64,000 nt of DNA, taken from an uncultured Pelagibacteraceae bacterium. Lineage in GTDB: Bacteria > Pseudomonadota > Alphaproteobacteria > Pelagibacterales > Pelagibacteraceae. This document shows positions 4,562-29,271 of this stretch, one piece after another. Location of the stretch: positions 1-64,000 of the forward strand of contig CACBGZ010000002.1 in NCBI GenBank assembly GCA_902538915.1, in the 5' to 3' direction. Both the position numbers and the translations under genes were made by a program. The number at the start of each line of letters is the position of its first letter. The first letter of the stretch is position 1. Under the pieces are notes generated by a model that saw only the letters and a list, made by a program, of their open reading frames with translations, made no database searches and was not told the origin of the DNA.

Positions 4562-6640
4562 TTATCCTGCAATTTTTTTTGTTACTTCGTCCTGTACATT
4601 CTGAGGTACTTTTGAATAATGATCAAAGAACATTGAATACTGAGCTCTTCCTTGAGACATTGATCTCAAATTGTTAATATATCCAAACATATTTGCTAAA
4701 GGAACCATCGCTGTGATTACAGTGGCATTACCCCTTTGCTCTTGTGTATTGATTTGACCCCTTCTACTATTTAAATCTCCAATTACATCACCCATATAAT
4801 CCTCCGGTGTTACAACTTCAACTCTCATAACAGGCTCTAATAATTTTAGATTACCTTTTGTACATGCTTCTTTAAAACAAGCTCTGCTTGCTAATTCAAA
4901 AGCCAAAACACTAGAATCAACATCGTGATGAAGTCCATCTAATATTGTAACTTTATAATCAATCATTGGAAATCCTGCTAAGATCCCTCCATCAGAAACA
5001 GTTTCGATTCCTTTTTCGACACCAGGAATAAATTCTTTTGGTATTGCGCCACCTTTAATCTTGCTTTCAACTAATCTGCCTGAGCCAGGCTCCTGAGGCT
5101 CAACTAGAAGCTTAACTTTAGCAAATTGTCCAGCGCCTCCACTTTGTTTTTTATGCGTATATTCTACCTCCGAAGTATTTTCTAGTGTTTCTCTATAAGC
5201 TACTTGTGGCGCTCCTACATTTGCCTCTACTTTGAACTCTCTTTTCATTCTATCAACAATAATATCTAAGTGAAGTTCTCCCATGCCCTTGATAATTGTT
5301 TGTCCAGACTCTTCATCAGATGTTACTCTAAATGATGGATCCTCTTTAGCTAATCTACCTAATGCTTCTCCCATTTTTTCTTGGTCAGCTTTTGTCTTTG
5401 GTTCTACTGCTATTTCTATTACAGGATCTGGAAATTCCATAGGTTCAAGTAAAACAGCCTTATCTTTCTCACATAATGTATGCCCTGTAATTGTATTTTT
5501 TAGACCTGCTAATGCTACAATATCACCTGAATTTGCTTCTTTAATATCCTCTCTTGAATTTGCATGCATTAATAGCATTCTTCCAACTCTTTCCTCTTTT
5601 TCTTTAGATGAATTGTAAACAGCAGTTCCTGTCTTAATTGTACCAGAATATATTCTAATAAATGTTAAAGAACCTACAAAAGGATCATTTGCTACTTTAA
5701 AAGCTAAAGCAGAAAACGGCGCATTATCATCAAACTTCATTTCTAATTCTTCCTCGCCGCCTATCTTTGTTCCTTTAATTGAGCCAATATCTACTGGACT
5801 TGGTAGATAGTTTACAACAGCATCTAATAATGGCTGAACTCCCTTATTTTTAAATGCTGAACCAGTCAAAACTGGAACAAAACTAAATTCTAAAGTCCCT
5901 TTCCTAATACACTTAATTAAATCTTCCTCTATTATTTCATCACCATTTAAATAAGCTTCCATTAATTTTTCGTCTTGTTCGACTGCTAATTCAACTAATT
6001 CTGTCCTATATTTTTGAGAAATTTCTTTTAGATCCTCTGGAATATCTTTATATTCCCACTCTGCTCCTAAAGCCTCATTTTTCCAAACTTGTGCTTTCAT
6101 TTTTACTAGGTCTACAACACCAGTTAGTGAAGCTTCTATTCCAATTGGAACTTGTAAAACTAAAGGTTTGGCACCCAACCTATCTTTAATCATATCAACA
6201 CATCTAAAAAAGTCTGCACCAGTTCTGTCAAGTTTGTTAACAAAACAAATTCTAGGCACTTTATATTTGTCTGCTTGTCTCCATACAGTTTCTGATTGGG
6301 GTTCTACACCGGCTACACCATCAAATACAGCCACTGCTCCATCTAAAACCTTAAGTGATCTTTCAACTTCAATGGTAAAATCTACATGACCTGGTGTATC
6401 TATTATGTTTATTCTATGATCTTGCCAAAAACATGTAGTTGCAGCTGAGGTGATTGTAATACCTCTTTCCTGCTCTTGCTCCATCCAATCCATTGTTGCA
6501 GCTCCATCATGAACTTCTCCAATTTTATGACTCTTGCCAGTATAATATAAAACTCTTTCAGTAGTTGTTGTTTTACCTGCATCTATGTGTGCCATAATTC
6601 CAATGTTTCTGTACTTATCTAAAGAATGTGACCTAGCCAT
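4562..6640 (-). CDS. fusA: translation elongation factor G
   Basis: EF-G is the GTPase that drives ribosomal translocation. With the start at 6640 ([20 protein letters not shown]) the protein has 692 residues, the standard length; an in-frame ATG at 6652 would add MVKN inside rpsG. The G motifs are intact: AHIDAGKTT (residues 17-25), DTPGHVDF, and NKLDR. Domain IV/V sequences such as [15 protein letters not shown] are present. It lies between rpsG and rpsJ as in the classical str operon, but tuf is not here: it lies upstream of secE. Confidence 0.97.
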
Positions 6641-7651: not shown

Positions 7652-10600
7652 TTATTGATTTGCTTGAGAATCTGAAGGTTCAATTTTTTCTTGCTCAGAA
7701 AGGAATTTATTATCATCATCTATAGCTTTTTTATTCCAATTATTCTTGATATTTCCTGTGCCTGCTGGAACCAGTCTACCAACAATAACATTTTCTTTTA
7801 AGCCATTCAAAGGATCAATTTTTCCTTTAATTGCTGCATCCGTTAAAACTCTAGTGGTTTCTTGGAAAGAAGCTGCGGAAATAAATGACTCCGTTTGCAA
7901 GGAGGCTTTAGTGATACCCATTAATACTCTTTCTGCTGTTGCTGGAGTTTTGCCCTCAGACTTTAATTTTTCATTATTGGTATCAAATTTTATTCTATCT
8001 ACTATTTCACCAGGTAAGTAACTTGAGTCTCCTGTTGTTTTCACCTCTACTTTCTTTAACATCTGTCTTAAAATTGTCTCAATATGTTTATCATTAATTA
8101 TGACCCCTTGTAATCTGTAAACTTCTTGAACCTGATTAACAAAATATTCGGTCAAATCTTTAATACCCATAATACGCAAAATATCATGCGGTAGTGGTTG
8201 TCCATCTAGAAGATATTCGCCTTTTTTTATTGTTTCTCCCTGATTAAAATTTATGTGTTTTCCTTTTGGAATTAAGTAGTTTGATGGTTCGGACCCATCC
8301 GTTGGAACAATAGAAATTTTCTGTTTCCCTCTTACCTCTTTTCCAAAGACTACTTGACCATCATTTTCTGCAATTATTGCACTATCTTTAGCTTTTCTAG
8401 CTTCAAATAGTTCTGCAACTCTTGGTAATCCACCTGTAATATCTTTTGTTTTGGTTGTTTCCTTAGGTAATCTTGCAATTACATCACCTGCTGAAACTTT
8501 TTGTCCATCCTTCACGGATAAGATAGAGTCTGGAACTAAATAATATCTTGCCTCGTTATCATCAGCTTTTTTAATTACATTTCCTTTTTCATCTCTTAGA
8601 GTTATCCTAGGTTTTAAGTCAGAACTTTTTGACTGTGATCTCCAATCAAGGACTGACTTGGATGATATACCTGTTGCATCATCGGTTGTTTCTTGAATTG
8701 AAACTCCATCAATTAAATCAACAAAAGTCGCTATACCACTTTTTTCTGCAATCACCGGTGTAGTGTAAGGATCCCATTCACAAATTTTTGTATTTGCTTT
8801 TATCTTATCACCATTATTAAAAAATAATCTTGAACCATAAGCCACTTTATAAACTGCAATTTGAACTCCATTATCATCTTCAATAGAAAGCTGTGTATTT
8901 CTTCCCATTACAATTAAATTTTTTTTTGAATCTTCGAGAATATTAGAATTAATAATTTTAAGAGTACCCTCGTTTTTACAAATAATTTGAGAATCTTGTT
9001 TTACCGAAGCCGTTCCACCTACGTGGAAAGTTCTCATTGTTAGCTGAGTTCCGGGTTCTCCAATAGATTGTGCAGAGATCATTCCTATTGCCTCACCCAC
9101 ATGAACCATTTGTCCCCTAGACAAATCTCTTCCATATGAGGTGGCACAAACACCCTCTTTAGATCCACACGTCATCACGGAATAAACTTTAACTGATTTT
9201 ATTCCAGCAGCATCAATCTTATCACATCCAGCTTCATCAATCATTGTAGATTTTTTAATTATAACTTCGCCAGTTATAGGATGTTTCACTTCATTAAAAG
9301 TAACTCTTCCTAAAGCTCTTTCTGATAGACTTACTACAACGTTACCACCCTCTAAAATTTCTGAAAGTTCAATAAACCCAGGATTTTTACAATCACATTC
9401 TTTTTTAGTAACAGTTAAATCTTGAGCGACATCACAAAGTCTTCTTGTTAAATAACCTGAACTAGCCGTTTTTAATGCTGTATCTGCTAACCCTTTTCTG
9501 GCTCCATGTGTTGAATTAAAATATTCTAGAGCTGTTAATCCCTCTTTAAAATTTGAGGTAATTGGACTTTCAATAATCTCTCCTGATGGTTTAGCAATCA
9601 AACCTCTCATTCCAGCTAATTGTTTCATCTGTGCCGCAGAGCCTCTGGCTCCACTATCAGCCATCATAAATACTGAGTTTATCTTAAGTCCTTCGGATGT
9701 CCTCTCTGTTGCTGAAATACCTTTCATCATTTCTGAAGCTACTTGATCAGTACATTTTGACCATGCATCTACAACTTTATTATATTTTTCTCCTCTAGTA
9801 ATAAGTCCCTCAGAATATTGAGTTTCATAGTCAGCTATGAGTTTTTTTGTATCATCGATAAGTTTATTTTTACTCTCTGGAATAACCAAATCATCTTTTC
9901 CAAAAGAAATTCCTGCTTTAAAAGCATGTTTAAAGCCTAAATCTTTAAGTTTATCACAAAATATTACTGTTGTTTTTTGACCACAAAATCTAAAAACGAT
10001 ATCTATAATTTCTGAAACAGTTTTCTTGGGAAGTAATCTATCTATTAAAGAAAATTTAATATTAAAATTTTTAGGTAGTAAATTAGCTAATAAAAATCTT
10101 CCTGCAGTTGAAGTGTATTTTTCAAATTTCTTCTTTCCTTCCGCATCGATTGTTTCAAATCTAGATATAATTGTACTATGAACTTTGATTTGATCTGAAG
10201 ATAAAGCAAACTCTATTTGATCTGCATCAACAAAATATCCAGCTGGTTTGTCTGTAAGTGGCTCTTGAGATAAATAGTAAATTCCTAAGATCATATCCTG
10301 ACTTGGTACTATAATAGGCTTACCATTAGACGGAGATAAGATATTATTTGTTGATAACATCAAAATTCTTGCTTCTAACTGTGCTTCAAGGCTTAAAGGA
10401 ACGTGGACTGCCATCTGATCTCCATCAAAGTCGGCGTTAAATGCTGCACAAGTAAGAGGGTGTAATTCAATAGCATCACCCTCAATTAATTTAGGCTCAA
10501 AAGCTTGAACTCCGAGTCTATGGAGTGTGGGAGCTCTATTTAATAATACAGGGTGTTCCCTTACGATTAATTCTAAAGCATCCCAAACTGCATTAGTTTC

Positions 10601-11821
10601 TTTATCCACAAGTTTTTTAGCTTGTTTAATAGTTGAGGCTAGTCCTAATTTATTAAGTCTAGCATATAAAAAAGGTTTAAATAATTCTAACGCCATTTTT
10701 TTTGGTAAACCACACTCATGTAATTTTAGATCAGGACCAACAACAATTACAGATCGACCAGAATAGTCGACTCTTTTTCCTAACAAATTTTGTCTAAATC
10801 TTCCTTGTTTTCCTTTTAACATTTCGGCTAACGATTTGAGTGGTCTTTTTCCAGTTCCAGTAATAACTCTTCCACGTCTTCCATTATCAAACAAAGCATC
10901 AACCGACTCTTGAAGCATACGCTTTTCGTTTCGCACAATTATATCTGGAGCCTTAAGATCCATTAATCTTTTTAAACGATTATTTCTGTTAATTACTCTT
11001 CTATACAAATCGTTAAGATCTGAAGTAGCAAATCTACCTCCATCTAGTGGGACCAAAGGTCGTAACTCAGGTGGAATTACTGGAACAACAGTCATAATCA
11101 TCCATTCTGGTTTTTGACCTGTTTCAATAAAAGATTCTATTAGTTTCAATCTTTTAATTGCTCTTTCCTCGTTAACTTTAGATTTTGTTTCTTTAATATA
11201 ATTTACTAAATTTTTTCTTTCTAATTCTAAGTCTAAAGATTTTAACATTTCTAATACTGCCTCAGCACCTATACCAGCTGAAAATGCTTCATCACCAAAC
11301 TCATCCTGATATTTAGCAAGTTCCTCTTCATTTAGAAGTTGATTTTTCTTTAAACCAGTTAATCCTGGCTCAATAACAATAAAGTTTTCAAAATACAAAA
11401 CTCTTTCAACTTCCTTGAGTTTCATATCTACAGCTAAAGCTATCCTGCTAGGAAGAGATTTTAAAAACCAAATATGTGCCACTGGTGTTGCTAAATTAAT
11501 GTGACCCATTCTTTCTCTTCTTACATTCGACTTGGTGACTTCGACACCACATTTTTCACATATAATTCCTCTAAACTTCATCCTTTTATATTTACCACAC
11601 AGACACTCATAATCTTTGATTGGGCCAAATATTCTTGAACAAAATAGCCCATCCTTTTCTGGTCTAAAGGTTCTATAATTAATTGTTTCAGGCTTTTTAA
11701 TTTCACCATATGTCCAAGATTTTATCTTTTCAGGACTTGCTAAAGATATTTTAATACTATTAAAATTTTGGGCCTCTGAAATTTCCGAATTCTTAAATAA
11801 ATCTGTTAATTCTTTTTTCAT
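7652..11821 (-). CDS. rpoC: RNA polymerase subunit beta-prime
   Basis: The largest RNA polymerase subunit, 1389 residues, normal for alphaproteobacteria. It has the N-terminal zinc-ribbon cysteines ([20 protein letters not shown]), the catalytic magnesium-binding loop [12 protein letters not shown] in the middle of the N-terminal half, the trigger-loop region, and the second zinc-site cysteines including ECDCKNPG. The start ATG overlaps the rpoB stop by one base. Confidence 0.98.
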
Positions 11822-14800
11822 TAGTTTAGCTCCACATTTAATGCCAATGATTTAATCTCTTTAACTAGAACGTTAAACGACTCGGGTATTCCTGATTCAA
11901 AATTTTCCTCACCTTTGACTATTGTCTCATAAACTTTAACTCTTCCTGCTACATCATCTGATTTTACAGTTAAAATTTCCTGCAAAGTATAAGATGCACC
12001 ATAAGCCTCAAGTGCCCATACCTCCATTTCTCCGAATCTCTGCCCCCCTAGTTGTGCTTTCCCTCCTAGAGGTTGTTGGGTCACTAAACTATATGGTCCA
12101 GTTGATCTCGCATGTATCTTATCCTCTACAAGGTGATGTAATTTTAACATGTAAATTATTCCAACCGTAACTGGTCTATCAAATTTTTCACCAGTTCTTC
12201 CGTCCCACAGATAGGTTTGACCTGAACCAGGAAGTTTTGCTAATTCTAGCATTTCAGTGACATTTTTTTCCTTAGCACCATCGAAAACTGGAGTTGATAT
12301 TGCGACACCGTTTTGAAGATTTTCACACAAGTCTTTAAACTCAGTCTTACTTAACTTCTCCACTTTTTCATTATAAATTTCATCTCCATAAACTGATTTT
12401 AAAAATTTTGTTATTTTTTCGGTTTTCTCTATTTTTTTTTGATTTTCGTTAACTAATCTTTTTATCTCTTCACCAAATTCTTTACATGCCCATCCCAAAT
12501 GAGTTTCTAAAATCTGACCAACATTCATTCTACTTGGAACTCCAAGTGGATTAAGTACTATGTCTACTGGTCTTCCATCTTCTCTGTAAGGCATATCTTC
12601 AACTGGAACTATCTTACTTACTACTCCTTTATTACCGTGTCTTCCTGACATTTTATCGCCCGGTCTCAATCTTCTTTTAATTGCAACAAAAACTTTTACC
12701 ATTTTCATAACACTAGGAAGTAGGTCATCTCCACTTCTTATTTTTAGAACTTTATCTTCAAACCTTTCAGTTATATCCTGTTTTGCTTGAGTATATTGTT
12801 CTTTTAACTGTGCTAATGCTGATTCGTGATCTTTATTTCCATCTGTGATCTTGAAAATATCATTTATTGATATGTTGTTAATTATCTCTAAATTAAGCTC
12901 AGAACCTTGATCTAAATCTTTCAATTTTTTACTTAATTTTGAACCAGATAAGATTTGTGATGCTCTTTGTTTTATACTTCTCTCTAAAATCTCTTCCTCC
13001 ACAATCTTATCTTGCTGTACTTGATCTATCTCAGCTCTTTCTATTGTGATTGATCTCTCGTCTTTTTCAATTCCATGTCTATTAAAAACTCTTACATCTA
13101 CAACAGTTCCACTGCTTCCTCTTGACATTCTCAAAGATGTATCTGTCACGTCAATAGCCTTTTCTCCAAAAATAGATCTTAAAAGTTTTTCCTCAGGTCC
13201 AGATGCTGAGTCTCCTTTAGGCGTAACTTTTCCAACTAAGATATCTCCAGCATTTACCTCTGCTCCAATGTAAACAACACCTGACTCATCAAGATTTTTT
13301 AATGCTTCCTCGTTAACATTCGGTATATCTCTAGTAATTTCCTCCTCACCTAATTTTGTGTCTCTTGCCATTATCTCATATTCAACAATGTGGACAGAAG
13401 TAAATACGTCATCAGTTACACATCTTTCAGATATAAGAATTGAGTCTTCGAAATTGTATCCTTGCCATGGCATAAAGGCTACAGTAACATTTTTTCCAAG
13501 TGCTAATTCACCTAATTTTGTTGAGGGTCCATCGGCTATAATATCACCTGTTTTAACTTTATCACCTACTCTAACCAGAGGTCTTTGGTTAATACATGTA
13601 TTTTGATTTGATCTTTTAAATTTTTGTAAATTATAAATATCTACACCTGATTTACTAAAATCTGTTTCCTCAGTTGCTTTAATAACAATTCTTTTGCCGT
13701 CAATTTTATCTACTACACCCTCTCTTTTTGCAACTATAGTTACACCTGAGTCTAGAGCAACATCGCTTTCGATTCCTGTTCCAACTAGTGGAGACTCTGG
13801 TTTTAACAATGGTACAGCTTGTCTCATCATATTTGAACCCATTAACGCTCTATTGGCATCATCATTTTCTAAAAAAGGAATTAGAGAAGCAGCAACTGAA
13901 ACCAATTGTTTTGGAGAGACATCAATATAATCAATAGTTTCAGGTTTTGATAATAGAAAATTTAAATTTTGACGACATGAAACTAATTCCTCGACTATTT
14001 TTCCATTTTTATCTAATTTAGTATTGGCTTGGGCTATTGTGTACTTTGTTTCTTCCATAGCTGATAAATACTCAACTTTATTTTGAACAACGCCTTCTTT
14101 TACTCTCTTATATGGGCTTTCTATAAATCCATACTTATTGATTTTTGCGTAAGTAGATAAGCTATTAATTAGTCCAATATTTGGGCCCTCGGGGGTTTCA
14201 ATCGGGCAGATTCTACCATAATGAGTTGGATGCACGTCTCTGACCTCAAAACCAGCTCTTTCTCTTGTTAACCCACCCGGACCTAAAGCCGAAACTCTTC
14301 TTTTATGGGTGATTTCAGATAAAGGATTAGTTTGGTCCATGAATTGAGATAATTGTGAACTTGCGAAAAAATCTTTCAATGAAACAGTTAAAGGTTTTGC
14401 ATTTATTAAATCTTGAGGCATAGCCGACTCTACATCTAAAGTTGTCATCTTTTCTTTTATGGCTCTCTCCATCCTGTAAACACCAATTCGAGCTTGATTT
14501 TCAACAAGTTCACCTACAGATCTAACTCTTCGATTACCCAGATGATCAATATCGTCTACTTCATCTTTACCATCTCTTAGGTCCAACATCTTATGGATAA
14601 TTGAAATAATATCATCATTTCTTAGGATTGTAATTTTATCTGAACACTCCAAATCTAATCTTGAATTCATCTTTACTCTACCAACATCAGAGAGGTCGTA
14701 TCTATCTGAGCTAAAAAATAAGTTATTAAAAATTTGAGTTGCTATTTCAATTGTTGGTGGTTCACCTGGCCTTAACATTTTGTAAATTTCTGTAATGGCT

Positions 14801-23647: not shown

Positions 23648-23733
23648 TGGTGCCCTCGGCCAGACTCGAACTGGCACTCCGCAAGCGGCAAGGATTTTAA
23701 GTCCTTTGTGTCTACCAATTTCACCACGAGGGC
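23648..23733 (-). tRNA. tRNA-Leu (anticodon TAA), island integration target
   Basis: A complete 86-base class II tRNA: acceptor GCCCTCG/CGAGGGC, anticodon loop CTTAAAA (anticodon TAA), long variable arm, T-arm AGTTCGAGTCT and encoded CCA. Its 5' half, from the anticodon loop through the acceptor and the upstream leader, is repeated at 25518 and 29165. This marks it as the attachment site of two tandem modules on its 5' side. The gene is regenerated intact by the incoming module's own copy. Confidence 0.97.
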
Positions 23734-23802
23734 ATTAATGAATTTCATGAGTATTTATGCTAATATTTATAATTGAACAAGATGAATAAGTAAATTTTTT
23801 TT
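23695..23802. repeat. att copy 1: tRNA-Leu 5' half plus promoter block
   Basis: The first of three direct copies of a roughly 108-bp block. It contains the anticodon loop (TTTTAAG), the rest of the tRNA 5' half to 23734, and 68 more bases covering the likely tRNA promoter. It differs from copy 2 (25518-25625) at one position, near 23782. Identity between copies begins at 23695; upstream of it this copy reads AAGGA (anticodon stem) whereas copies 2 and 3 read CGCC or TGCC. Confidence 0.93.
23752..23780 (-). promoter_or_regulatory. likely promoter of tRNA-Leu
   Basis: On the minus strand TTGTTC (23780-23775) is followed after 17 bases by TAAATA (23757-23752). This places a start about 12 bases before the tRNA. 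The same sequence is present in both other att copies, so each integrated module brings a promoter able to drive the rebuilt tRNA. The boxes match sigma-70 consensus only moderately. Confidence 0.5.
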
Positions 23803-23816
23803 AATTTATCTCTCTA

Positions 23817-23837
23817 GGTACTAGTTTAGTACTAGTT
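23817..23837. repeat. module A left copy of 21-bp direct repeat
   Basis: Two GTACTAGTT units 11 bases apart (starting 23818 and 23829). An identical 21-bp copy is at 25373-25393, so the repeat brackets the two cargo genes. The unit start is 123 bases from the crossover loop. Module B has GCTTCTAGTT units at the equivalent places. Confidence 0.85.
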
Positions 23838-23854
23838 ATCCTATAAAATCCTAT
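23838..23854. repeat. inverted end motif of module A, left
   Basis: ATCCTATAAAATCCTAT. The reverse complement of the motif at 25451-25467 matches it at 16 of 17 positions. The two therefore form an inverted pair near the ends of the module. It abuts the 21-bp repeat directly and lies 2 bases from the lipoprotein stop codon. Confidence 0.75.
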
Positions 23855-23856
23855 AA

Positions 23857-24405
23857 TTATTTTTGTCTACAGTTTGTGTGAACAATCTTACTACTACCAA
23901 CTCTTTGCGAAACACAATACATTCTAGGAGTTGAAGTATTTGCTGTTGTACCATATTTAGCATCAACAATAGCATTTAATATTTCATCACCATGATTGTA
24001 TAAAACCCAGGCAGCAGATTCCCAAAATTTCTTTAAAAAACCGTCCTTGTTAGTTTTTTCAATTTTTTCTCCATTTGAATTTTCATAACTAAATGTAAGT
24101 TCAATATTTTCTTTTTCTTTAGCCTCTTTTTGTAAAATATATTCTTGTACAGAAACATAGTCAGAAATAGATTTATCAGATTTGTTTAAAAGATATTGCT
24201 TATGAATATCATTCCCTATTTTAAAATGTTTTGCCATGCATTTGTGCCACGGAGAACCCCAGCTTTTATCTGCCTCGCTAACACCAATATTTCTACAAGA
24301 GTTTGCAGCAAATGCTCTTGTTTTGTCTCCAGAATAATCCATCTCTTTTCCAAAACAACCAGATAAAAGAAAAGCTAAAAGAGTAAAAATTGTAATTTTT
24401 TTCAT
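23857..24405 (-). CDS. predicted lipoprotein of unknown function (module A cargo)
   Basis: A 182-residue protein with a type II signal peptide: KKITIFTLLAFLLSGC, lipobox LSGC with Cys at residue 17, so it should be anchored in a membrane facing the periplasm or surface. The mature part has four more cysteines (in NSCRNIG, WHKCMAKH, MYCVSQ and TNCRQK), allowing disulfides. I do not recognise the family. It starts 8 bases after the DUF4268 stop. It is also flanked by 15-bp direct repeats (23840-23854, 24413-24427), so it may be a separately gained cassette. In a defence module a surface lipoprotein could act in phage exclusion, which is conjecture. Confidence 0.7.
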   Translation of the reverse strand: MKKITIFTLLAFLLSGCFGKEMDYSGDKTRAFAANSCRNIGVSEADKSWGSPWHKCMAKHFKIGNDIHKQYLLNKSDKSISDYVSVQEYILQKEAKEKENIELTFSYENSNGEKIEKTNKDGFLKKFWESAAWVLYNHGDEILNAIVDAKYGTTANTSTPRMYCVSQRVGSSKIVHTNCRQK

Positions 24406-24412
24406 TAGATAA

Positions 24413-24427
24413 CCTATAAAATCCTAT
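24413..24427. repeat. 15-bp direct repeat between module A genes
   Basis: CCTATAAAATCCTAT, identical to 23840-23854 in the same orientation. It overlaps the last codons and stop of the DUF4268 gene. The lipoprotein gene is thereby bracketed by two copies. Confidence 0.7.
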
Positions 24428-25355
24428 CTAATTCTTTTATCGGACCTTTGAAAGCTTTTTCTAATTTAATCAAATGATCTACTAAAAAATTGTGAATATC
24501 TTCCCATGTTTCTTCATCTTGAAAACCTCCTAAATCAGATTTAAATGTTATTCTACAAGCCCTAGAGTCATCTAGTCTTTTCCATTCTAATTCATTACCA
24601 AAATCTTTTTCAATAGATGTTTTATGCTTTTCCAAATGATTATAAATTTTTAAATTTGCCTCTTTACCTTCTTCTTTTCCTCTATCAATGTATATTTCTA
24701 CTTGACCAGATCTATTCATTGCAGCAACAAGATAATTAACCCCTCTTACACCAGCACTTACACCCATATAATTTCTGCCTTTTGGAGCTGTATTACTGTA
24801 GATATTACTTTTTTGTTTTAATTTTTCATAAAAAGCTGACCAAAAATTAAATTTAATTTTCTCTTTTTCCGAGTCTTCTTCCTTAATTTTTCCAACCTTT
24901 GTAATATTTTCATCTGGTCCTGATAATAAAAAAAATTGAGCTCCAGGCTCGCTATCTTTGATTTTAAAAACTTGAATTTTTACTAAAAAAAATAAACATG
25001 TTTTTACATTGGCATTGAGCCATTCAATTGCTCTGTGGTGCTCTGGTTTAACATCTTCTACTATCCAAATAGCTTTTTTTGTATTTTCCACATTACTTAT
25101 ATAGGTTAATAACTTACCTAAATGATCGTGATCAGATTTTTCAAATTGATTTTCAATTATTACTTTTCCCTGATCATCCTCAGCTACTATATCTACTTTA
25201 AAAGTATCTAATTTTTTTTCACTTTCAGGATCTTGAATATTTAATCCTAGATCTTCATTAAGTAATGCAATGTTCTGGACTAACCATGGTGTAAAATCTC
25301 TATCTTCTGTCTTCCAGATATCTCTTATTTTTTGTTTTTTAAGTCTTGAAACCAT
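24414..25355 (-). CDS. DUF4268 domain protein with PD-(D/E)XK nuclease-like fold (module A cargo)
   Basis: A 313-residue protein. The N-terminal part has the pattern D55 ... E68-N-Q70 (FKVDIV, then VIIENQ) followed by SDHDHLGKLLTY. This is the PD-(D/E)XK nuclease-like core with glutamine in place of the usual lysine that characterises these proteins. The C-terminal half (NFWSAFYEKLKQKS to the end) matches the DUF4268 domain, often found in mobile and defence loci. A role in restriction or DNA repair is likely but not shown; no methyltransferase partner is adjacent. The start lies 18 bases from a 21-bp module repeat that could carry its promoter or operator. Confidence 0.75.
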   Translation of the reverse strand: MVSRLKKQKIRDIWKTEDRDFTPWLVQNIALLNEDLGLNIQDPESEKKLDTFKVDIVAEDDQGKVIIENQFEKSDHDHLGKLLTYISNVENTKKAIWIVEDVKPEHHRAIEWLNANVKTCLFFLVKIQVFKIKDSEPGAQFFLLSGPDENITKVGKIKEEDSEKEKIKFNFWSAFYEKLKQKSNIYSNTAPKGRNYMGVSAGVRGVNYLVAAMNRSGQVEIYIDRGKEEGKEANLKIYNHLEKHKTSIEKDFGNELEWKRLDDSRACRITFKSDLGGFQDEETWEDIHNFLVDHLIKLEKAFKGPIKELDRIL

Positions 25356-25517
25356 AAATATTTATCTCTTAAGGTACTAGTTTAGTACTAGTTTGACAAA
25401 AATAATTATTAAGAATTTTAAATAAAATAATCTTTATATTTTCAGAACTTATAGGATTTTAAAGGATTTAGACTGCTCTGGACTACTATGGACTGACTTT
25501 TACTTCTATCCCTCGCC
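25356..25517. other. module A right arm
   Basis: A gene-free stretch. It holds the 21-bp repeat, an AT-rich segment, ATAGGATTTTAAAGGAT at 25451-25467 (inverted partner of 23838-23854), and three GACT units at 25471, 25481 and 25491. The GACT units are spaced one helical turn apart and the last is 27 bases from the crossover loop. It resembles a recombinase arm or accessory-protein region. Confidence 0.65.
25373..25393. repeat. module A right copy of 21-bp direct repeat
   Basis: Perfect copy of 23817-23837. Its first GTACTAGTT unit starts at 25374, 144 bases before the crossover loop of att copy 2. On the minus strand it lies just upstream of the DUF4268 gene, overlapping the region expected for its promoter. 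Confidence 0.85.
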
Positions 25518-25625
25518 TTTTAAGTCCTTTGTGTCTACCAATTTCACCACGAGGGCATTAATGAATTTCATGAGTATTTATGCTAATATTTATAATTGAA
25601 CAAGATTAATAAGTAAATTTTTTTT
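25518..25625. repeat. att copy 2: partial tRNA-Leu plus promoter block
   Basis: Direct copy of 23695-23802 with a single mismatch. It contains only the tRNA 5' half, so it is not a functional tRNA. It forms the junction between modules A and B. Upstream of the loop it reads CTCGCC instead of the anticodon stem. Confidence 0.93.
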
Positions 25626-25638
25626 ATTTTATCTATCT

Positions 25639-25660
25639 GGCTTCTAGTTAGCTTCTAGTT
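25639..25660. repeat. module B left tandem repeat
   Basis: Two GCTTCTAGTT units 11 bases apart, starting 25640 and 25651; the first lies 122 bases from the crossover loop, against 123 in module A. It is directly followed by ATCCTACAAAATCCTAG (25661-25677), the counterpart of the module A end motif; the stop codon of the small gene (25674-25676) lies inside this motif. Confidence 0.75.
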
Positions 25661-25673
25661 ATCCTACAAAATC

Positions 25674-26012
25674 CTAGAGCCAATCACTACACCAGGTAAA
25701 TACATCTGCTTCAAATTTTATATCATTAAATTTAAGCAGTTGTTTGTATCTTTCTAATCTATGCTTTTTATCAAACTTAGTGAGGAAATTGTATATTTTA
25801 TCATAATTTAATCCCTTCAGATCTGTTTTTTTTATATCTACATATTCTTCATAATCTAAACCACATATAGAAAATTTTTTTTTAGGATCAATATGTTCTG
25901 AGTAGCTAATGGTGTCTTTACTCTCTTTTAATATATCATAATAATGAGCCACTTCATTATTTCTCTCAAAAAGATAATCTTTTCTGAAATCAAACAGTTC
26001 AAGTTGTTGCAT
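25674..26012 (-). CDS. small hypothetical protein with sliding-clamp-like motif (module B cargo)
   Basis: With the ATG at 26012 the product has 112 residues and begins MQQLELFDFRKDYLFERN. A TTG start at 26051 would add 13 residues, but the ATG is more credible. Residues 3-7, QLELF, fit the bacterial beta-clamp-binding consensus (QL[SD]LF) at an exposed N-terminus. The rest is charged and soluble with no recognised domain (SICGLDYEEYVDIKKTDL in the middle). It lies downstream of the large restriction-modification gene by about 100 bases, so it could be a partner, an anti-host factor or a replication-targeting protein. Function unknown. Confidence 0.6.
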   Translation of the reverse strand: MQQLELFDFRKDYLFERNNEVAHYYDILKESKDTISYSEHIDPKKKFSICGLDYEEYVDIKKTDLKGLNYDKIYNFLTKFDKKHRLERYKQLLKFNDIKFEADVFTWCSDWL

Positions 26013-26112
26013 ATATTTGGAATTGTTAAAGTTAGAAATAAACTTTAACAATAATTAATATAATTAGCAAAAATGGCAGAAGTTTGGTTGATCAATCAAA
26101 ATATTAAAAAAT

Positions 26113-28992
26113 TTACAAAAGGTTATTATTAAATATTTCATCTACAAATTGTAAAGCTTCCTCATGATTTTTAAACTTAAAAAACTTTTCTTTCATTTTT
26201 TTACTAATTAATTGTCTGATTTCTATTTCTGGATAAGGGATTTTGAAACTCTTCAGTGTAGGTTGGTTAATACCACCCTGACCTCCTTTGGTTGATGCGT
26301 AATTAATATATTTTCTAAAGTTTGATGAATACAAGTATGCAAATGTATACCAATAATCTAATTCCGGTTTTAGTCTCAATATAAATACATGTTCATTGAC
26401 AATAGCTTTTTGCTGTAAGTTATTATGCACTAAAATTGTTTTACCCGACCTAGCTCCATCTTTTGTAATTAAAATGTCATTTTTTTTAATAGTCCATTTA
26501 GCTGGACAAGTTGAAAAGTATTCTTCACTTACAAATTCTTTTGATGATAAATCAAATTCACCCCCTTCACCAAGATGTCCTCCACCAATAGACAATACAC
26601 CTTTTTCTATTCTACCAGTGCCTCCTTTTGGTCTTTTACCAGATATCAAATCATCGAGAATAAATTCTTTTAGAGGTATAAAATCGCAATTAAAATTAGG
26701 TGTTAAATCCTCTTCCAAAAAGGGATTAAAAGTACCATCTTTAGAAACAAATTTTTTAAAGTCTAGATATAGTAAAATATCTTTAAATTTATCATTTTTT
26801 GATTTTGAGTTTTTAAAATATTTTTCTAAATTTTCACCTAAAAGTATTTTTTTTACATAATAAGAAATATAATTCTCATCATTAGTTTTTTCTTCATTGA
26901 ATAAAATACCATCATTAAAAGTTTGAATGCCCTCAAATCCACGCCTTTCAGAAAACTCATAACCAAGTAATTTTTTTTGTTTTTTTGATTTTTTGTCATC
27001 AGGTGGATCCAAATCAGCAATCAAAATTTTATCATTATTGGGTTTATTTTTTCTGATCATAAACAAAATCATTGTTCTCATAGGGGTTTTTCTGAATGCT
27101 TTGTCCCCAAGTTTTATCAACGCTTTAATTTCAAAATTCTCTAAAAGAAACTCTCTGGTATTAGAATTAATTTCATCAGTTGTAGTTAATAAGGACCTTG
27201 GTACAATTACCCCAATAATTCCATTTTCCTTTAAAAGCTGTTTTGCCCTCTCTAAAAATAAACATTCAATTTTATCACTAGTAGGGCTTAAATATTTATA
27301 TAATGAAAAATTATTTTCCCCATCGATAATTCTATTTTTAAAATTATCAACTGAGTATGGGGGATTTGCTACAATTATATCAAACACTTGATTATTTTGA
27401 TCGCTCTTTTCAGATTTTAATAATTTTTTATAATCATGGTTATAGAATGGAAGTAAACCATCGGTGCAAAAAGTATTTGCATCACCATCTCCATTGAGAA
27501 ATGAATTTACTTTTGTTGTTTTTGCTAGTCTGTAATCTTTTTCAATTGCATAAACATATTCATTGCACCATTTATAATTCTTTTTATTCTGAGTGAAATT
27601 ATCAACAGCAGTTTTTCCTCCCTCAATCTCTTTAATGTTTAACTCATCAATTACTTTTTGAATTAATGAAATCATTTCAGTAATAAAATGACCACTACCT
27701 GATGCATAATCAATTACATAAGGTAAGAAATTTATATCCTTATTTTTATTCTTATTTTTAATAATATTTTCAATAGGAATACTATTACAAATAAAAGATG
27801 CTAAAGGTATTGGCGTAAAAAATTGTCCAGATTCTTGTTTAATCCCTGTATCTAAAATTTTTTCAAAAAAGTCACCAAGATATTGATGCTTTGTACTGTA
27901 TTTAAGTTTATAAGTTTGTAAAAGTTGAACAATTGATTTTACAATAAATGCATTTTCTTCAAAAGTTTTTTTGTTAAAAATTTCTTTGAATTCAAATTCA
28001 TTAGAAACAATTGATGTATTTTCATTTAATTTAAGGTACTTTTTGAAGCTATTTAAATTCTTAAAATCATCTTCAATTAAATTATTTTTACTATCAAAAA
28101 TATCAACATTTAAATAATTTTTTGTGCCTTTTATATAAAGATCTTTTAATCTTTTAATAAACGAAGTGTAGTCGTCACTTTCTAACCACTGAAAATCTAA
28201 AGATTTTTTAAAGTTTTGATCCTCATCAAAAATTTTACAAATAAATAAATTAAAAATCTTATTAAATGCATTTGTTTTATCAGAAACAATATTCCTCCTT
28301 AATATTTCAGCAAATTGGTTAAAAATGTAACCACCATCATCTGAATTTATATCCCTTAAATCACTATAGTCTAATCTTTCTATACCTAGTTCGTAAGGTT
28401 TTTTACCCTCTTCAAATAAACCTTTAGATATAAAAATTTTGTCCCATTTTTCGTATAAATCTTTCAAATTTTTTGAGGATGACATTTCTTTGGTTGGAAG
28501 AAAATAATCGTATTGTCTTTGAATAGTGTCTTTTTCAAATTTTGATGTATAAATAGAAACAATCTTAGTATCTTTTTCATTTAAAAAATAACTGAGTAAT
28601 TGGTTTTTCTTCCAATCAGTTGTTGTTTTTTCTTTTGAATTATTAAACTCTTTACCAAAAGTCTTACAATCAATTAAGGCCCAAGATTTTTTTTTATTGT
28701 CTAAAATTTGTACATCACAATAACCAGCGCCAGCATTATGCCCAAGAGAAAAAGGTTTTTCTAAAACTATATTCTCACTGTTATAGCCAATATTTAGTAG
28801 TTTAATTACAAATTCTAAAACAACTAAATTTTCCTGTTTTTCTTTTAAATCATTTATTGTCTTTCGGTGAATTTTTATATCACCATAATCAATTACGAAA
28901 TCTTCTGAAACATATATTTTATTTTTTCCTTTTGAGAATAAATAAGAATTCTCTTTTTCTTTAAAATTTAATAAAGATAAATATTTTTTCAT
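26113..28992 (-). CDS. single-chain restriction-modification enzyme (nuclease + N6-adenine methylase + specificity domain)
   Basis: A 959-residue protein that appears to combine all three restriction functions. Residues about 60-110 form a PD-(D/E)XK-like nuclease (E60, D93 in YCDVQIL, D108-C-K110). Residues about 370-560 are an N6-adenine methyltransferase: GQFFTP (389-394), motif I DYASGSGHF (428-436) and catalytic NPPY (543-546). Residues about 765-945 resemble one HsdS-type target-recognition domain (FIPLKEFI, WTIKKNDILITKDGARSGK, GGINQPTLKSFKIP). This is a type IIG / fused type I-like layout that cuts unmodified DNA and protects its own. No separate hsdR, M or S gene is nearby. It starts 29 bases from the module repeat pair. 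Confidence 0.85.
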   Translation of the reverse strand: MKKYLSLLNFKEKENSYLFSKGKNKIYVSEDFVIDYGDIKIHRKTINDLKEKQENLVVLEFVIKLLNIGYNSENIVLEKPFSLGHNAGAGYCDVQILDNKKKSWALIDCKTFGKEFNNSKEKTTTDWKKNQLLSYFLNEKDTKIVSIYTSKFEKDTIQRQYDYFLPTKEMSSSKNLKDLYEKWDKIFISKGLFEEGKKPYELGIERLDYSDLRDINSDDGGYIFNQFAEILRRNIVSDKTNAFNKIFNLFICKIFDEDQNFKKSLDFQWLESDDYTSFIKRLKDLYIKGTKNYLNVDIFDSKNNLIEDDFKNLNSFKKYLKLNENTSIVSNEFEFKEIFNKKTFEENAFIVKSIVQLLQTYKLKYSTKHQYLGDFFEKILDTGIKQESGQFFTPIPLASFICNSIPIENIIKNKNKNKDINFLPYVIDYASGSGHFITEMISLIQKVIDELNIKEIEGGKTAVDNFTQNKKNYKWCNEYVYAIEKDYRLAKTTKVNSFLNGDGDANTFCTDGLLPFYNHDYKKLLKSEKSDQNNQVFDIIVANPPYSVDNFKNRIIDGENNFSLYKYLSPTSDKIECLFLERAKQLLKENGIIGVIVPRSLLTTTDEINSNTREFLLENFEIKALIKLGDKAFRKTPMRTMILFMIRKNKPNNDKILIADLDPPDDKKSKKQKKLLGYEFSERRGFEGIQTFNDGILFNEEKTNDENYISYYVKKILLGENLEKYFKNSKSKNDKFKDILLYLDFKKFVSKDGTFNPFLEEDLTPNFNCDFIPLKEFILDDLISGKRPKGGTGRIEKGVLSIGGGHLGEGGEFDLSSKEFVSEEYFSTCPAKWTIKKNDILITKDGARSGKTILVHNNLQQKAIVNEHVFILRLKPELDYWYTFAYLYSSNFRKYINYASTKGGQGGINQPTLKSFKIPYPEIEIRQLISKKMKEKFFKFKNHEEALQFVDEIFNNNLL

Positions 28993-29164
28993 TTATTAAC
29001 CATATATTTTTATCCCTACAGCTTCTAGTGTACTTCTAGTTTGAGAGAATTTACTAACCATATTTTTCAATAAAAATAAGTGTGAGTTTTTAAAAGTGTA
29101 AGATTTTGTGATTTTAAGATTGTATGAGACTACCAGAGACTAACTAAATTGTGAATCCTCTGCC
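28993..29164. other. module B right arm
   Basis: Gene-free. It holds the repeat pair GCTTCTAGT / ACTTCTAGT (29021-29042, first unit 144 bases from the loop, as in module A). GATTTT at 29102 is 63 bases from the loop, as in module A. GAGACTA units at 29126 and 29136 are 10 bases apart, with GAC 27 bases from the loop, as in module A. The sequence between these signals differs from module A. Confidence 0.65.
29021..29042. repeat. module B right tandem repeat
   Basis: GCTTCTAGT followed 11 bases later by ACTTCTAGTTT. It is an imperfect partner of 25639-25660 and brackets the module B cargo. Confidence 0.7.
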
Positions 29165-29271
29165 TTTTAAGTCCTTTGTGTCTACCAATTTCACCACGAG
29201 GGCATCTGTTATTTTCATGAGTGTTTATGCTAATATTTATAATTTAACAAGATGAATAAGTAAATTTTTTT
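29165..29271. repeat. att copy 3: displaced chromosomal tRNA-Leu 5' half
   Basis: The outermost copy. The 40 bases of the tRNA half are identical to copies 1 and 2, while the leader differs at several places just beyond the acceptor (TCTGTTAT instead of TTAATGAA). No tandem repeat or ATCC motif follows it, so it is probably the original chromosomal end of attB. From 29272 to the next gene nothing recognisable is seen. Confidence 0.88.

Follow-up and report, generated by a model that had tools for sequence, protein, structure and literature searches.

The window, meaning the whole stretch of DNA that was analysed, comprises 64,000 nucleotides from an uncultured Pelagibacteraceae bacterium. It contains an intact tRNA-Leu(TAA) gene, two elements lying end to end, and two half-copies of the same gene, one between the elements and one at the far end of the insert. 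Each element carries short repeats near both ends, here called keys. The features are as follows.

23648..23733, minus strand: intact tRNA-Leu(TAA) gene, identified by ARAGORN and its fold; attL of element 1
23690..23706, no strand assigned: core, consisting of stem AAGGA (23690-23694), loop TTTTAAG (23695-23701) and stem TCCTT (23702-23706)
23694/23695, no strand assigned: left edge of the exchange, from the window copies and junctions in relatives
23695..25517, no strand assigned: element 1, 1823 bp, encoding a DUF4268 protein and a 182-aa protein; no recombinase
23754..23781, minus strand: conserved block upstream of the tRNA 5' end, also at 25577-25604 and 29224-29251
23817..23838, plus strand: left key of element 1, GGTACTAGTTTAGTACTAGTTA, an 11-bp-spaced repeat
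23839..23856, plus strand: left box, TCCTATAAAATCCTATAA, with a near-inverted copy at 25449-25467
24414..25355, minus strand: DUF4268 protein, 313 aa (element 1), PADLOC candidate defence family PDC-S11
25373..25394, plus strand: right key of element 1, GGTACTAGTTTAGTACTAGTT, an 11-bp-spaced repeat identical to the left key
25479..25494, plus strand: near-junction repeats of element 1, TGGACT-N4-TGGACT, 10-bp spacing, presumed arm sites
25518..25557, minus strand: tRNA-Leu half-copy running from the loop to the 5' end, where element 1 meets element 2, from copy comparison
25518..29164, no strand assigned: element 2, 3647 bp, encoding a 959-aa type IIG-like restriction-modification protein and a 125-aa protein; no recombinase
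25640..25661, plus strand: left key of element 2, GCTTCTAGTTAGCTTCTAGTTA, an 11-bp-spaced repeat
26113..28992, minus strand: type IIG-like restriction-methyltransferase, 959 aa (element 2), with N6_Mtase, Eco57I and specificity domains
29020..29041, plus strand: right key of element 2, AGCTTCTAGTGTACTTCTAGTT, an 11-bp-spaced repeat
29126..29141, plus strand: near-junction repeats of element 2, GAGACT-N4-GAGACT, common to the right end of the G208 helper
29165..29204, minus strand: native 5' half of tRNA-Leu, displaced (attR), from the empty site L133

The tRNA has a 5-bp anticodon stem and a 7-nt anticodon loop. The half-copy at 25518 reads CCCTCGCC followed by TTTTAAG, with CTCGCC just before the loop, and that at 29165 reads CCTCTGCC followed by TTTTAAG, with TCTGCC in the same place. 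Both break precisely at the left border of the loop. To the right, all three copies are identical over the 40 nt between the loop and the tRNA 5' end, a match that is significant, as a 12-mer by itself in AT-rich DNA is not. Past the tRNA 5' end, identity over 159 nt is 93% for copies 1 and 2 and 72% for copy 3. At attL the 3' part of the tRNA is chromosomal, while the loop and 5' part are supplied by element 1.

Pelagibacteraceae genomes were searched using the tRNA-Leu gene as query; the loci were fetched, the junctions tabulated and repeats removed. The gene is present in most members of the genus, many of which have tandem half-copies, and, among named genomes, the sequences matching the half-tRNA exactly come from SAR11 single-cell and metagenome records. 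In the empty-site allele L133 an ORF starts 97 bp past the intact tRNA, and in the window the same ORF lies 96 bp beyond attR. The insert therefore extends over 23695-29164 and consists of two elements, and the copy at 29165 is the native 5' half. The 78 junctions have 62 distinct 30-nt left ends, in which the number of bases left of the loop matching the intact gene is zero (50 of 62) or one (12 of 62). To the right of the loop all 40 nt match in 45 junctions, and the per-column identity is 95-100% across the 40 nt after the junction. At least three right-end types are found at the junctions, showing that the shared edge is not a single event copied many times. The loop is changed to TTTTAAA in 2 of the 78 junctions; these changes were considered as markers of the cut site and rejected, since they could be later mutations.

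The original prediction, made from the letters of the window, placed AAGGA-TTTTAAG-TCCTT at 23690-23706, which is correct in both letters and positions. It further stated that identity between the copies starts exactly at the anticodon loop. This held in the window and in the 62 distinct left ends from relatives, which together with L133 place the left exchange edge at the loop border; a breakpoint outside the loop, which would have refuted the prediction, was not seen, the match never reaching beyond one chance base outside the border. The statement that everything to the right of TTTTAAG is unchanged held only in part, being true for the 40 nt up to the tRNA 5' end. The flanking inverted repeat of the stem is likewise only partly confirmed. 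The chromosomal site has it, but none of the left half-sites of the elements reads AAGGA; the elements thus lack one half of the dyad, and the stem symmetry is confined to the chromosomal site. Strand exchange by a tyrosine recombinase at the anticodon loop is supported overall. Only the left exchange point is shown, however. The right-hand cut falls within shared sequence and cannot be read from the alleles, so the 7-bp stagger is merely inferred from known integrases, without binding data.

The block upstream of the tRNA 5' end has no matches within the window other than the three listed, and it occurs at the same offset in 94 of 124 intact sites and 48 of 78 half sites. It is presumed to be the tRNA promoter, with a copy in each element. 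A sigma-70 scan upstream of the tRNA gave no canonical match, so that the putative promoter replacement rests on conservation alone.

Neither of the two window elements encodes a recombinase. Anti-phage genes are likely to be present in both, and the 182-aa protein of element 1 has a lipoprotein-like start. Across the Pelagibacteraceae 62 complete elements were delimited, ranging from 781 to 8806 bp, with most between 0.8 and 6 kb. Their cargo includes autotransporters, trypsin-like proteases, restriction-modification genes, transporters and metabolic enzymes. A recombinase is encoded by two of the 62 (G208 and G160) and is absent from the other 60, in which no recombinase fragments were detectable either. 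In these 60 elements 107 of the 116 ORFs of at least 100 aa are on the tRNA strand, a bias that could perhaps be due to a promoter in the right end.

In most elements an 8-10-bp sequence is present twice with 11-bp spacing, at roughly +122 counted from the left edge and again at roughly -145 counted from the right. The repeated sequences in the window are GGTACTAGT (element 1) and GCTTCTAGT (element 2). The key sequence differs widely between elements, with about 25 variants counted by eye, yet it agrees within one element. The summed score of the left/right key match is 1193, compared with a best of 964 in 20,000 permutations, none of which reached the observed value. For 49 of 63 elements at most five other right ends match the left key equally well; the remaining 14 are poorly matched, having nine or more such right ends. 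The key variant and the right-end type are both common to G160 and several cassettes. The positions of the keys suit the arm sites of a lambda-type integrase. The keys are probably binding sites for the N-terminal arm domain of the recombinase that set the pairing of helper and cassette, although this role is inferred and there are no binding data. In the 1067-bp element of L220 (oriented 4709-5775) another repeat, ACTACACTAGA, is situated nearer both ends (+102 and -77).

The two recombinase-bearing elements, here called helpers, are both found in tRNA-Leu. G208 (7776 bp) encodes a 545-aa tyrosine recombinase and G160 (8806 bp) one of 551 aa; each also encodes an AEP-type primase-helicase. 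G208 has in addition a RusA-like protein and a weak AlpA match (E 0.03), and no capsid genes were recognised in it. The right end of G208 is identical to that of window element 2 at 43 of 45 bases, and the end of G160 is identical to that of the cargo element L063 at 43 of 45. The original prediction had proposed looking for a tyrosine recombinase in larger modules with the same ends and in co-occurring phages. Such modules are indeed found in relatives; in both G208 and G160 the integrase lies some 100 bp away from the right junction, and the joined site adjoins tyrosine recombinases in satellite-like contigs and in podophages. The podophages, the isolate HTVC105P included, have the same core beside integrases of 282-297 aa.

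The helper recombinase has the conserved R, K, R, H and Y positions in the alignment. It matches Pfam Phage_integrase with a weak score (E 3.4e-10) and the PHROG integrase at 4e-21. The best Foldseek matches are lambda integrase complexes, with the integron integrase ranking after them; the arm-binding domains of P4-like integrases match lower and weakly. Three strands and a helix, which might form an N-terminal arm-binding domain, are predicted at residues 73-125. The recombinase is therefore likely to be of the lambda type, but the predicted fold is support and not proof because confidence in the model is low (mean pLDDT 52).

The viral contig L102, of 7.7-7.8 kb, encodes a 545-aa integrase and a primase-helicase, and beside them lies the joined site. 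The contig sequence is repeated at the ends, and the contig is therefore probably circular. This fits an excised circle, although a tandem array would look alike. Relatives of the helper integrase occur both in viral-classed contigs (L102, L112, L115 and L117) and in chromosomes. Homologues were found in 6 of 399 genomes of the genus, with close ones in 2 of 399. In G242 a helper-like element, whose integrase is a distant relative, lies at tRNA-Leu and directly adjoins a cassette, the sole such case. The helper integrase had no match in the phage collection searched, nor in the genome from which the window comes (947,620 bases in 24 contigs). As that genome is only about 79% complete, the helper could possibly be absent from the assembly. 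A single tyrosine recombinase match was obtained in this genome; it is a frame of 310 aa and is taken to be Xer on the basis of its size and constancy (about 310-325 aa in most relatives). In the satellite-like viral contig L117 a 966-aa restriction-type helicase with ResIII and Mrr_cat_2 domains is situated just right of the attachment site (9405-12305).

A more distant integrase homologue, in G366, is located in tRNA-Ser(TGA). Identity there begins at TTTCAAG, which is the anticodon loop and again 7 nt long; the junction is followed by a cassette-like left end. A helper-like element in L262 (1455-10551) and the start of a cassette in L275 are situated in tRNA-Ser(TGA), and both break at the edge of the anticodon loop. 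The viral contigs L327 and L328 were considered as tRNA-Ser attachment halves and rejected, each having a whole tRNA-Ser gene. In L271, L280, L287 and L259 cassette-like left ends with 11-bp-spaced repeats follow what appears to be the 5' end of a protein-coding gene (AATAATCGCCAGCTTCCTG...), possibly a third kind of target site. Half-sites in L047 and L032 (oriented 8430 and 4223) have differing right ends, ATCTTTAAAGAA and TTTAAAGGA up to the junction, with TTTTAAA following. The L047 element has plus-strand cargo of two genes, and a search of it for key repeats found none. These half-sites might represent another element type using the same site.

The cassettes were most likely placed at the tRNA-Leu(TAA) loop by a lambda-type recombinase and mobilised in trans by helpers resembling tycheposons or satellites. 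In this view, the site in the window would be used by small integrative cassettes that form a family in SAR11. The recombinase would insert a cassette, in circular form, into the chromosome at the anticodon loop, displacing the native 5' half to the far end of the insert. The regenerated site would be re-used, giving tandem arrays such as the two cassettes in the window. Most cassettes, the window pair included, would be moved by satellite-like helpers, which are rare, 7.7-8.8 kb long and have the same ends, and the keys, once bound by the arm domain, would decide which helper moves which cassette. Directly shown are the junctions, the empty site L133, larger elements that have the same ends and encode the recombinase, and the matching of the end repeats. 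Catalysis is inferred, no excision, integration or binding having been observed. Mobilisation in trans is also inferred, from the lack of a recombinase in most cassettes. A bolder reading, somewhat less likely than not, is that SAR11 populations share a pool of recombinase-free cassettes which rare helpers carry from cell to cell, the approximately 25 key variants being a sorting code for which helper can move which cassette, in every case into the same loop.

One alternative involves the same kind of recombinase, with the overlap further right, inside the 40-nt shared stretch and not at the loop edges. The left edge of identity would then merely mark where element and chromosome must agree. 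This is consistent with a limit visible only on the left, the right side being identical over 40 nt in most junctions, and with the core of the elements, which without AAGGA is not a symmetric dyad around the loop. Against it, identity at tRNA-Ser(TGA) likewise starts at the loop edge, and anticodon-loop exchange is established for such sites (PMC8371274, PMC4383910), making the shifted overlap unlikely.

The cassettes might instead be dead remnants, that is, autonomous elements which have lost their recombinase and are inherited or shuffled by homologous recombination between half-copies. The 60 of 62 elements without a recombinase are in agreement with this, and half-copies could recombine over their 160 bp of partly shared sequence. 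The rarity of close helper homologues also leaves room for the cassettes to be remnants spread by other means. However, no recombinase fragment is detectable in any of the 60, both ends are kept with matched repeats, the cargo is highly variable, and 43 of 45 bases agree between the ends of cassettes and of elements with a recombinase. The remnant explanation is therefore improbable. Mobilisation by HTVC105P-like podophages, which use the same tRNA-Leu site and have the 40-nt core beside their integrase, is very unlikely, since the sequence left of their core is unlike that of the cassettes and their integrase profile matches nothing in the cassettes. Recombination of the tRNA stem-loop as a folded single strand, in the manner of integron attC, would account for the likeness of these tandem, often one- or two-gene, mostly co-oriented cassettes to integron arrays, but it is hardly compatible with the double-stranded arm-like repeats at both ends of each cassette or with a helper recombinase fold closest to lambda Int.

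The preferred reading, cassettes mobilised in trans by helpers, can be compared with several known systems. The attachment site itself is already known. A tRNA-Leu fragment was noted earlier in a pelagiphage (PMC3861242), and cyanophage attP sites match the first half of tRNA-Leu (PMC8776855). The T7-like cyanophages (P-SSP7, S-TIP37) and pelagiphages such as HTVC105P are, however, complete podophages with 282-297-aa integrases; they form no cassette arrays, and the sequence beside their core differs.

The nearest named kind is the tycheposons of Prochlorococcus (Hackl et al. 2023; via PMC10872708), cargo elements of streamlined marine bacteria which likewise insert at tRNA genes and use a tyrosine recombinase. 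Some tycheposons are reportedly described as satellites. The elements described here share the insertion of cargo at tRNA genes in a streamlined marine bacterium, but most of them are 0.8-6 kb long, as against a reported 4-200 kb, lack a recombinase and have matched end repeats. The weak Pfam score of the helper recombinase fits the deep-branching recombinase of tycheposons but proves nothing.

Genomic islands that use the anticodon subsite of a tRNA gene (Williams 2002; Islander, PMC4383910) show the same regenerated tRNA, far-end fragment and anticodon-loop exchange, and two of their features are seen here: the intact target is regenerated with a displaced fragment at the far end, and element-target identity begins at the anticodon loop. 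Islander also requires an integrase gene within the island; G208, G160 and L102 have one, while the window cassettes and 60 of the 62 complete elements do not. The window insert displaces the 5' half, the reverse of the usual case, a 5' displaced fragment being found in 159 of 3919 Islander islands (PMC4383910). In most bacterial integrations the tRNA keeps its original promoter (PMC8371274). The archaeal pTN3-type integrases likewise use the tRNA 5' half as attB, with the element replacing the promoter side (PMC8371274), but are split on insertion, and the text of PMC8371274 bearing on them describes no cassettes.

Reliance of cargo or end-only elements on a helper recombinase is also seen in CALIN arrays and MITEs; these, however, use the integron integrase with folded attC sites and transposases, respectively (PMC11389934). 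The only recombinases found here were the lambda-type and the presumed Xer, attC sites being outside the search. The helper itself resembles phage satellites such as the PICMIs (PMC10803314) in having an integrase, an AlpA-like small protein and a primase-helicase, with no capsid genes found. This is the gene set by which satellites are defined, an integrase, a small regulator and a replication gene without capsid genes, subject to the weakness of its AlpA match. PICMIs have a different host, and data on packaging, a helper phage and induction are lacking for the helper.

No earlier description was found of the cassette arrays, of the matched repeats or of a majority of elements without a recombinase, and the literature on SAR11 variation that was searched, which included few subscription papers, does not describe the cassette system. 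If the proposal is true, it provides a directly testable mechanism, in which both the site and the recombinase are defined and a sequence code would predict pairs of helper and cassette. The likely anti-phage genes in both window cassettes suggest that the system may be a route for the exchange of defence.
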